64,000 bases of DNA from Microbacterium terrae (GTDB lineage: Bacteria; Actinomycetota; Actinomycetes; Actinomycetales; Microbacteriaceae), in NCBI RefSeq assembly GCF_017831975.1, contig NZ_JAFDSS010000001.1:558001-622000 (forward strand), written 5' to 3'. A model generated the notes under the pieces. It was given only the letters and a program-made list of their open reading frames with translations. It searched no databases and had not been told where the DNA came from. Positions 1 through 1,795 of the stretch are shown here, piece after piece (position 1 is the first letter of the stretch; the number at the start of each line of letters is the position of its first letter). The translations under genes were made by a program, and so were the position numbers.

Positions 1-274
1 CCCCGGCGCCGTCGGCGTCATCGCGTCGGTGACCGCGCCGTTCTGCGGCGACTGCGACAGGCTGCGCCTCACCGCCGACGGACAGCTGCGCAACTGCCTG
101 TTCTCGACGACCGAGTACGACCTGCTGCCGATCCTGCGCGGTGATCCGGGCGACCACGTCACGCTGATCGACCGGATGCTGCGCGCCTGCGTGCACGGTA
201 AGCTCCCCGGTCACGCCATCAACGACCCGTCGTTCCTGCAGCCCGCGCGGGGCATGAACGCCATCGGCGGCTGA
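1..274 (+). CDS. moaA: GTP 3',8-cyclase MoaA, C-terminal end (partial)
   Basis: Only the last 90 or so residues are in the window; the frame is open from base 2 and the start lies upstream. MoaA is the radical-SAM enzyme that begins molybdenum cofactor synthesis by rearranging GTP. The visible part carries the C-terminal iron-sulfur ligands: FCGDCDR gives a CX2C pair, and a third cysteine follows 13 residues later in LRNCLF, the CX2CX13C arrangement of the second [4Fe-4S] cluster. The protein ends in a Gly-Gly, as MoaA usually does. The stop is one base before the fdhD start, so both are cotranscribed, which fits molybdoenzyme maturation. Confidence 0.95.
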
Positions 275-275
275 G

Positions 276-1178
276 GTGGGCAGGCTCACGGTCAACCGCC
301 CGGTCACGCGGATCACGCTGACCGGCGACACCGCCTCGTCGCGGCGCCGCCCCGACACGCTCGTCGTCGAGGAGCCGCTCGAGATCCGCGTCGGCGGCGA
401 GGCGCTCGCCGTGACCATGCGCACGCCCGGGCACGACGTCGAGCTCGCGACCGGCTTCCTCGTCTCCGAGGGTGTCATCGCCGCACCAGAAGACCTGCGT
501 CAGGCGATCCACTGCGCCGGACCGTCGAGCGGACCGCCGGCAGCCGACGACGGCAACAGCTACAACGTGCTCGATGTGACCCTGGCCCCCGGCATCCCGT
601 CGCCGCGGCCCAACCGGTCGTACTCGATGACGAGCGCCTGCGGCATCTGCGGCAAGGACTCGATCGACGAGGTGCGCACCGTGTCGCGCTTCGACCTCGG
701 CGCCGACGCGACGACGGTGCCGGCGCACACGCTCGCCGCACTGCCCGATGTGCTCCGAGCGCAGCAGACGATCTTCGACAAGACCGGCGGGCTGCACGCC
801 GCCGCCCTGTTCGACATCGCGACCGGAGAGCTGCTGGTGCTGCGCGAAGACGTCGGCCGGCACAACGCGGTCGACAAGGTCGTCGGCTGGGCGCTGCAGC
901 AGGGTCGTCTGCCGCTGCGGGCGACGGTGCTCCAGGTGTCGGGCCGGGCGAGCTTCGAACTGGCGCAGAAGGCCGTGATGGCCGGCATCCCGGTCCTCTC
1001 CGCGGTGTCGGCGCCGTCGTCGCTCGCGGTCGAGCTCGCCGCGGCGTCGGGTCTCACGCTCGTCGCGTTCGTGCGTGGGGCGTCGCTGAACGTGTACACC
1101 GGAGCCGAGCGGGTGACGCTGGCGACGGATGCCATGGACGCGGGCGCATCCGCGTCGGGACGAGCCGCCGCGGGCTGA
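276..1178 (+). CDS. fdhD: formate dehydrogenase accessory sulfurtransferase FdhD
   Basis: FdhD passes sulfur from a cysteine desulfurase to the molybdenum/tungsten cofactor of formate dehydrogenases. The 300-residue product has the family signatures: EEPLEIRV near the N-terminus, a catalytic CGICGK loop (CX2C at about residues 122-125), [20 protein letters not shown], and [12 protein letters not shown] for cofactor binding. The GTG start is chosen because it directly follows the moaA stop (one-base gap), implying translational coupling. No formate dehydrogenase gene is in this window, so its client must be encoded elsewhere. Confidence 0.95.
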
Positions 1179-1183
1179 TCCGC

Positions 1184-1783
1184 TCAGCGGCGCTCGAGCA
1201 CGACGACGCACGTCGTCGGATCGCACGCGGGCTCCATGCCGGCCACGGCGAGCGGCCCGCCGGCCTCGGCGAGCACGCCCTGCATCACCCCGAGGTGCAC
1301 ACCGCAGACCACTGCGCGACCCTGATTCTCCGCGTGGGCGCACGGCGAAAGGTCGATCGTGAGCGCATCCGCGTCGACGAGGGGATCGAACCCCTCCTCG
1401 ATGAGGTCCTCCACCAGCGCGTCGAGCTGATGCAGCGCCTCGCCGGTGAGCCCGTCGGGGGCGGTGCCCGGGATCATCCGCCGCAGCAGGTCACCCCGCA
1501 CCGCCGCGTCGCGCGCCTTGCGCTGCGCGACCGGCGATGACGCCTCGGCGCCCGTGGCCGCGCTGTAGAGCACGCGCGGGCGTCCGCGCGTGGTGCGGCG
1601 CTCGGTCTCGCTCACGACGTAGCCCGCGTCGATCAGGCGCTGCAGATGCTCGCGCACCGTGTTGGCGTGCAGCCCCGTCGCCTCGCAGAGCTCGGCCACC
1701 GTCCGCCGCGGCTCGAGCTGCATGAGGTGCAGCATCTCGACGCGTGCGGTGTTGGAGATCGCGCTGTACGGCGGACGGGTCAC
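1184..1783 (-). CDS. HTH transcriptional regulator with a C-terminal four-cysteine cluster
   Basis: A 199-residue regulator. The N-terminal 80 residues form an ArsR/SufR-like winged helix (TVAELCEATGLHANTVREHL is the recognition region). The C-terminal domain holds four cysteines arranged C-x11-C-x26-C-x4-C (SPC, VVCGVHL, PAC, TTC), reminiscent of the Fe-S-sensing SufR/Rv1460 family, although the spacing differs. I infer a metal- or cluster-responsive regulator; its targets are unknown. It converges on fdhD with a five-base gap. The GTG start lies six bases after a GATAAT hexamer, so the message is probably leaderless. There is no suf operon in the window. Confidence 0.8.
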   Translation of the reverse strand: MTRPPYSAISNTARVEMLHLMQLEPRRTVAELCEATGLHANTVREHLQRLIDAGYVVSETERRTTRGRPRVLYSAATGAEASSPVAQRKARDAAVRGDLLRRMIPGTAPDGLTGEALHQLDALVEDLIEEGFDPLVDADALTIDLSPCAHAENQGRAVVCGVHLGVMQGVLAEAGGPLAVAGMEPACDPTTCVVVLERR

Positions 1784-1789
1784 ATACCC

Positions 1790-1795
1790 ATTATC
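1790..1795 (-). promoter_or_regulatory. -10 hexamer of a probable leaderless promoter
   Basis: On the minus strand GATAAT is followed by six bases and then the GTG start of the four-cysteine regulator. Initiation six to seven bases downstream would place the first transcribed base at the start codon. No Shine-Dalgarno sequence is possible in that space. Inference from sequence only. Confidence 0.5.

Follow-up and report, generated by a model that had tools for sequence, protein, structure and literature searches.

We analysed a stretch of DNA of 64,000 nucleotides from Microbacterium terrae (the window; G000:C1:558001-622000 of a complete 3.9-Mb genome) and found that it carries the gene of a winged-helix protein which, on balance, is probably an iron-sulfur regulator of the ArnR/SufR type. 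This regulator would activate cydABDC and an oxygenase-like gene through the 11-bp site TTATTCACGGC, and its own message would start at, or next to, its GTG start codon. Gene linkage and promoter comparisons suggest that cytochrome bd, rather than moaA-fdhD, is the target that is switched on. Actinobacterial control of low-oxygen respiration, above all of cytochrome bd, is only partly known, and cytochrome bd is a drug target in mycobacteria. The present analysis supplies a family of proteins, the DNA site and promoter layout that go with it, and a short list of predicted target genes. Should the reading hold, a scaffold otherwise associated with repression has been turned into an activator, and proteins of the ArnR/SufR type are capable of both. 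In the open-licence literature searched, no title or abstract opening describes a cytochrome bd activator of the ArnR kind.

The regulator gene and its place upstream of cydABDC

The features around the regulator gene, in window coordinates, are the following:
2..274, plus strand: 3' part of moaA (whole gene G000:C1:557198-558274), divergent from cydA
276..1178, plus strand: fdhD, convergent with the regulator gene; a clade-specific neighbour
1184..1783, minus strand: regulator gene, 199 amino acids, GTG start; winged helix (residues ~8-61) and C-terminal cysteine domain
1208..1210, minus strand: codon of Cys192, third invariant cysteine of the alignment
1223..1225, minus strand: codon of Cys187, lineage-specific (35/62 genus rows, 1/39 others)
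1295..1297, minus strand: codon of His163, invariant in the alignment, three residues past Cys160; candidate fourth ligand
1304..1306, minus strand: codon of Cys160, second invariant cysteine of the alignment
1340..1342, minus strand: codon of Cys148, first invariant cysteine (62/62 genus rows, 39/39 others)
1790..1795, minus strand: GATAAT, the -10 of the regulator's own, probably leaderless, promoter, as judged from the sequence and the orthologues

The earlier note had described an open reading frame with a GTG start and a C-x11-C-x26-C-x4-C arrangement, and the sequence and its translation agree with this description. The cysteines are located at residues 33, 148, 160, 187 and 192, and the last four form the pattern. 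A profile search matched residues ~8-61 to winged-helix families, including HTH_5 (ArsR/MarR-type winged helix), which scored 34.6 bits, above its curated cut-off of 22. Among the matches listed (25 of 28 for Pfam and 20 for NCBIfam), no family covered the C-terminal half, and a CRP-type fold, that of FNR, was not matched. The AlphaFold model (pLDDT 69, pTM 0.40) was too weak for placing the cysteines or a metal site; a Foldseek search with this model gave query-normalised TM values of at most 0.35 among the 50 matches listed, which were mostly winged-helix chains.

Gene starts, gene calls and -10 hexamers were obtained with custom scripts. As the earlier note had stated, GATAAT lies six bases upstream of the start codon, with positions 1784-1789 between the hexamer and the GTG at 1781-1783 (minus strand). 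A -10-like hexamer (A at position 2, T at position 6, at least 4/6 identities to TATAAT, 4-10 nt before the start codon) was found in 53 of the 61 orthologues other than that of the window, and 45 of these hexamers were located at exactly 6 nt. Additionally, matches to a ribosome-binding sequence were weaker at the regulator than at cydA (3.5 vs 4.5 of 6, with approximate starts). The regulator message is compatible with being leaderless, as the earlier note had supposed, and this fits the 6-nt gap between the -10 and the start codon that is kept across orthologues.

Profile matches identified moaA (its 3' part in the window) and fdhD as neighbours of the regulator, in agreement with the earlier note. 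The cyd genes lie just outside the window, and the order in this genome is cydC, cydD, cydB and cydA (minus strand), moaA and fdhD (plus strand) and the regulator gene (minus strand). In particular, cydA starts ~1 kb outside the window and is divergent from moaA; cydC and cydD are two ABC-transporter genes that were assigned by position. When 99 genomes of the genus were compared, 63 matched the regulator at 1e-15, and one of them (G032) held only an hmp-type paralogue, which left 62. We found 52 of the 62 orthologues within 5 kb of cydA (cydABDC), all of them upstream and codirectional, and in 30 of them the matched regulator and cydA stretches were separated by less than 400 bp. The conserved partner across the 62 orthologues is cydABDC, not moaA-fdhD. 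A cydA gene is also present in 35 of the 37 genus genomes without the regulator.

Three genomes with the regulator (G090, which is 68% complete, G093 and G097; loci L096, L097 and L102) had no cydA match; their regulator genes lie near moaA- and narK-like genes, in G097 also near a narG-like gene, and no TTATTCACGGC with up to one mismatch was found beside the regulator at these loci. At seven other loci (L111, L119, L121, L123, L125, L131 and L132), the genome has an orthologue and a divergent-type cydA elsewhere. The upstream site is kept in six of the seven, and several of them neighbour mogA/moaE-type or oxygenase-like genes.

The 11-bp site and the geometry of its promoters

The upstream regions of cydA have the 11-bp site TTATTCACGGC in common. 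Exact copies were found in 49 of the 62 genomes with the regulator and in 1 of the 37 without it (Fisher p 6e-15). The 99 genomes contain 71 exact copies, of which 47 lie within 5 kb of the regulator, 23 lie elsewhere in 21 regulator genomes and 1 lies in the genomes without the regulator, whereas a reversed control pattern was equally frequent in the two groups, with 15 matches in each. This co-occurrence, together with the reversed control, ruled out a chance word or a general element. With up to two mismatches, the site was present upstream of cydA in 34 of 52 genomes with the regulator (36 of 54 rows, two genomes being counted twice, L090/L279 and L094/L280, here as in the cydA spacing set), whereas the comparison set had it in 2 of 37 rows, in one case on the wrong strand; this set consists of 33 loci without the regulator and L281-L284, which have the regulator but a divergent cydA elsewhere. 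The window genome contains one exact site (557103-557113, minus strand), located in the cydA-moaA gap 149 bp before cydA and oriented towards it. It also contains 11 one-mismatch matches, vs 4 for the reversed control, one of which is tied to a target; the window itself has no more than five matches with two mismatches, the number expected by chance.

The site was also observed at the promoter of the regulator gene itself. In one subclade (23 loci, up to one mismatch), it lies 59-61 bp before the regulator; at 17 of these loci cydA follows the regulator within 47-281 bp, and at the other six cydA is elsewhere. In another subclade, the -10 of the regulator gene is overlain by an inverted site (at -21 to -28 in 12 loci; one more has it at -113), and such an inverted copy would repress the regulator gene. 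The same place in the window reads GCCGCGATAAT, a degenerate form of the inverted site. The GATAAT of the earlier note is thus the -10 at a position that in relatives bears an inverted TTATTCACGGC-type site.

Of the 23 sites away from the regulator, 20 were fetched, and 11 of them are flanked by a GmrSD-type gene on one side and, on the other, by a gene whose protein product has 257-268 residues (Pfam was run on one such pair, and the others were assigned by BLAST). This protein had no Pfam, NCBIfam or PDB match. Inspection by eye showed that it has H-x-D and, further on, a histidine, a pattern shared with 2-oxoglutarate/Fe(II) oxygenases, and its homologue at L111 (~61% identical) gave a sub-threshold match to Asp_Arg_Hydrox (E 0.22); the protein may be oxygenase-like. 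The gene occurs in 70 of the 99 genomes, 57 with the regulator (one of which has only a second copy) and 13 without. Among the 44 of these 57 genomes that were examined for a promoter site, 25 had the site with up to one mismatch, compared with 0 of the 13 without the regulator (Fisher p 2e-4), and 18/37 vs 0/13 (p 0.002) remained after removal of seven genomes included only for an exact site. With up to two mismatches the numbers were 31/44 and 2/13, so that 13 of the 44 promoters in regulator genomes had no site; three more had one only at an odd distance. In the window genome, the oxygenase-like gene is located at 1390317-1391087 and has ATATTCACGGC (one mismatch) 103 bp before it. Oxygenase-like promoters with and without the site carry TAGGCTTGCCTAAG or a similar sequence, which we take to resemble a DtxR/IdeR iron box. 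The oxygenase-like gene (G000:C1:1390317-1391087 and its relatives, L327-L376) has a second copy in some genomes, located near the cyd operon or adjacent to the regulator.

The three kinds of promoter revealed a common geometry. A NANNNT hexamer stands 31 bp after the site in 61% of the 36 cydA rows (another 36% have it at 32 bp), in 83% of the 23 regulator promoters and in 80% of the 25 oxygenase promoters, against a mean over all offsets of ~4%; the promoters within each set are related, and the percentages are not independent trials. The -10 of the oxygenase set coincides with the conserved iron-box-like sequence. The spacer between the site and the -10 showed little base conservation, and TTGACA matches at the normal -35 distance did not exceed the shuffled level in the cydA, regulator or oxygenase promoter sets. 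A fixed site upstream of promoters without a -35 is activator behaviour. It is mainly for this reason that we call the regulator an activator, which we consider likely. The protein would bind TTATTCACGGC just upstream of the would-be -35, 31-32 bp before the -10, and would thereby activate cydABDC (cytochrome bd) and the unlinked, iron-box-bearing oxygenase-like gene.

The best-surviving alternative is a repressor of cydABDC that acts like ArnR, the holo protein blocking transcription until NO or oxygen damages its cluster. ArnR represses with its cluster bound (as described in an excerpt of PMC12343034), and the inverted site over the regulator's own -10 in one subclade would suit a repressor. 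However, in three promoter sets the site keeps a distance of 31-32 bp to the -10, outside the core promoter and with no -35, and a repressor has no need of such spacing; we therefore regard repression of cydABDC as unlikely.

Activation from this site would extend to relatives in other genera, where homologues of the regulator adjoin narG-like genes and the same site and spacing would serve those genes. At the nar-linked loci, the site (up to two mismatches) with a spaced -10 was found in 8 of 9 cases, compared with 0.22 per shuffled locus, and it was located at the 3' end of the regulator gene or between the regulator and the narG-like gene. Within the genus, paralogues of the regulator lie beside a flavohaemoglobin-like gene (that of L139 has globin and NAD-binding domains and scores 354 bits against the Hmp model, whose cut-off is 432). 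The paralogues and homologues that adjoin such a gene (L139, L140, L142-L148 and L163) are 33-41% identical to the regulator. A variant site, TTATTTCCGG, occurs with the same 31-bp spacing at 4 of the 10 hmp-linked loci; it was picked by eye from these same loci, post hoc, and one locus is counted twice.

The signal would be O2, NO or the state of the cluster, and is somewhat more probably O2 or NO than not. If the holo protein is the binding form, as in ArnR, activation of cyd and nar with an intact cluster would resemble FNR; in that case NO could induce hmp only with a different sign of control or through a differently used site.

Pyruvate formate-lyase (L397-L414) occurs in 18 of the 99 genomes, and all but one of these also carry the regulator (17 of 18; Fisher p 0.002). 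It is a doubtful candidate target: an exact site lies upstream in only 2 of the 14 loci with a readable start, and neither of these two sites has a -10 at 30-32 bp, one having it at 33. In Corynebacterium, a one-mismatch site word beside arnR at L243 is no more than suggestive; by our own estimate ~0.3 such words are expected in 18.7 kb, and a site before narK in Corynebacterium is not established. The site with a spaced -10 was also observed before the gene of a 164-residue membrane protein that follows a trpD-like gene (L342 and L343; two genomes) and before a VKOR-family gene (L333; one genome).

Whether or not a genome has the regulator, palindromes, TGTGGTCTGACCACA, can be found upstream of its cydA (e.g. 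at L158, L251 and L263, outside the window), and they are often paired around a second -10-like sequence. TGTGGTCTGACCACA looks like a GntR-type operator, and cyd may thus have a second input.

Putative metal ligands and the distribution of the site

Residue conservation was analysed in an alignment of 101 rows, comprising 62 rows from the genus, the window protein among them, plus 39 other distinct rows. C148, C160, C192 and H163 were invariant in 62/62 genus rows and 39/39 others. C187 was found in 35/62 genus rows and 1/39 others and is lineage-specific; C33 was found in 25/62 and 0/39, and 21 of the 27 genus rows without C187 carry another cysteine between C160 and C192. As evident from these counts, the family is marked by three cysteines together with one histidine. 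The term "four-cysteine" used in the earlier note is thus correct for the window's lineage but not for the family, given that C148, C160 and C192 are kept in all 101 homologues and C187 is not.

The same four residues (C148, C160, H163 and C192) were invariant when the window protein was aligned with 13 of the 17 Corynebacterium ArnR-type proteins. In ArnR, these residues hold a [4Fe-4S] cluster, which is lost in Cys-to-Ala variants (excerpt of PMC12343034). The proposal of an Fe-S or metal sensor fits this result, as the invariant three cysteines and histidine are common to the regulator and to ArnR, a [4Fe-4S] regulator according to the same excerpt (PMC12343034), and we think it quite likely that the metal centre of the regulator is of the Fe-S type. 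The C-terminal domain would hold this centre, most likely [4Fe-4S], through C148, C160, C192 and a fourth ligand, which would be H163 or, in the window's lineage, C187.

Three cysteines and one histidine also make a zinc ligand set, and the cysteines might bind zinc, in a structural or sensory role, instead of a cluster. ArnR preparations do contain some zinc, but the same residues of ArnR bind the [4Fe-4S] cluster that the Cys-to-Ala variants lose (excerpt of PMC12343034), and we regard zinc in place of a cluster as improbable.

The distribution of the site was compared with a tree of CydA N-termini, which contained 78 rows, 51 with the regulator and 27 without (two repeats, one short row and ten rows with less than 66% N-terminal identity were left out). 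By parsimony, presence of the regulator changes 12 times on this tree, at least 3 of them on well-supported branches; the tree was built from a short alignment, and support is poor for 25 of its 72 inner forks. The 27 rows that lack the regulator all lack a right-strand site as well. G019, drawn beside the window genome (85/0), and G073, beside G017 and G094 (90/80), both lack the regulator, and both still have cydA and fdhD within 1.5 kb of each other.

These data bear on a further alternative, in which the site belongs to another regulator and is kept by chance with the gene, while the protein controls itself or something else. Binding of the site by this protein is what we infer, and the site shows no clear dyad symmetry, which is odd for a dimeric winged-helix protein; in addition, an exact site is missing from the 5 kb on either side of the gene in 19 of the 62 genomes with the regulator. 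Nevertheless, the site tracks the gene across cyd linkage and, in other genera, narG-like linkage, it is missing on several branches where the gene is missing, and no other recurrent gene cluster was seen across these neighbourhoods. We judge this alternative to be even less probable than zinc.

Least probable of all, and very unlikely, is the view of the earlier note, a SufR-like sensor of sulfur or cluster state that controls moaA-fdhD: the window's clade has these genes next to the regulator, the moaA ORF starts 85 bp after the exact site that the cydA-moaA gap contains, and some orthologues adjoin other molybdenum-cofactor genes (mogA- and moaE-type), but fdhD is within 10 kb of the regulator in only 19/62 and absent from 33/62 genomes, the site points to cydA and the SufR scores are poor. 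With 52 of 62 orthologues linked to cydA and 33 of 62 genomes without any fdhD, the role conserved in the family is not to control the maturation of molybdoenzymes, and the linkage counts rule out moaA-fdhD as the main target. As the site of the window genome stands in the gap that cydA shares with moaA, it may nonetheless have some effect on moaA-fdhD.

Comparison with ArnR, SufR, FNR and the known regulators of cydABDC

We compared the Fe-S activator proposed here with known regulators. Among its relatives, 17 loci carry named Corynebacterium homologues. The C. gallinarum homologue (L243) contains C-x13-C-x29-C and sits after narK-, narG- and narH-like genes (MFS; molybdopterin oxidoreductase of 1255 residues; ferredoxin-type). 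Its cysteine spacing and nar neighbours fit the description of C. glutamicum ArnR, which has Cys179, 193 and 223 and whose gene adjoins narKGHJI; that protein is an NO-responsive repressor of narKGHJI and hmp that represses with its cluster bound (excerpt of PMC12343034).

The profile of the ArnR set matched the window protein with 50.2 bits (1.6e-15) and an hhalign probability of 99.1% over most of its length, whereas the profile of the SufR set gave 20.7 bits and 96.6%. The SufR_cyano model TIGR02702 reached 19.4 bits against a cut-off of 178.8, over residues 15-77 (the winged helix) only; this model is cyanobacterial, and a SufR from Corynebacterium, encoded next to a SufB-type gene, likewise stays below its cut-off with 77 bits. 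In a homologue tree of 68 rows, which included 23/62 genus, 6/17 ArnR and 5/13 SufR rows, the genus rows formed one group (100/97); its neighbour was a group made up largely of hmp-linked paralogues (95/85), followed by homologues linked to nar genes (100/98). ArnR rows and genus rows were kept apart in two well-supported groups. The SufR rows were placed on the window's side of the branch that splits off ArnR (87/89, unstarred), contrary to the profile scores, and ArnR and SufR are both on very long branches. As judged from profiles and tree, the regulator is of the ArnR/SufR kind and lies within neither clade: the tree gives no support for an ArnR orthologue, and a plain SufR is ruled out by the profile scores and a missing cysteine. 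The designation "SufR-like" in the earlier note applies loosely at most; the winged helix matches, but the score is far below the cut-off and the ArnR profile fits better.

The regulator and ArnR are alike in having a winged helix and a C-terminal domain with an invariant cysteine triad and histidine (C148, C160, H163 and C192), and homologues of the regulator are linked to nar- and hmp-like genes. Some differences were present. The regulator contains C-x11-C-x31-C, compared with C-x13-C-x29-C in ArnR, is 23-31% identical to ArnR-type proteins and belongs to a separate clade. It adjoins fdhD, moaA and cydA rather than narKGHJI, although some homologues in other genera are nar-linked. In addition, its site geometry argues for activation, whereas ArnR represses.

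SufR, a [4Fe-4S] repressor of suf operons, shares the winged-helix type and spaced C-terminal cysteines with the regulator, and according to the tree its kinship may be as near as that of ArnR. In contrast to the regulator, which lacks the first cysteine, all 13 of 13 SufR rows contain C-x3-C-x12-C-x27-C. There are no suf genes beside the regulator; its neighbours are AAA and membrane-protein genes, fdhD, moaA and cydABDC.

Control of the same operon in an actinobacterium has been described for C. glutamicum, where cydABDC is controlled by SigC, HrrA and OxyR (excerpt of PMC7337898). These are a sigma factor, a two-component response regulator and a peroxide regulator, respectively, and none belongs to the regulator's family. 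According to an excerpt of PMC12343034, C. glutamicum has no direct FNR homologue.

FNR, a [4Fe-4S] activator of anaerobic respiration from the CRP family, belongs to a protein family unrelated to the regulator. The DNA site of FNR also differs from the predicted site of the regulator. If our reading is right, the two are alike in being cluster-bearing activators that act from a fixed upstream site on respiratory operons. We tentatively propose, as a serious possibility rather than a firm conclusion, that this ArnR/SufR-like branch is the FNR of these actinobacteria, which from its own site, TTATTCACGGC or a near variant placed 31-32 bp ahead of the -10, would turn on cytochrome bd, nitrate reductase, the oxygenase-like gene and, through a changed site, flavohaemoglobin.
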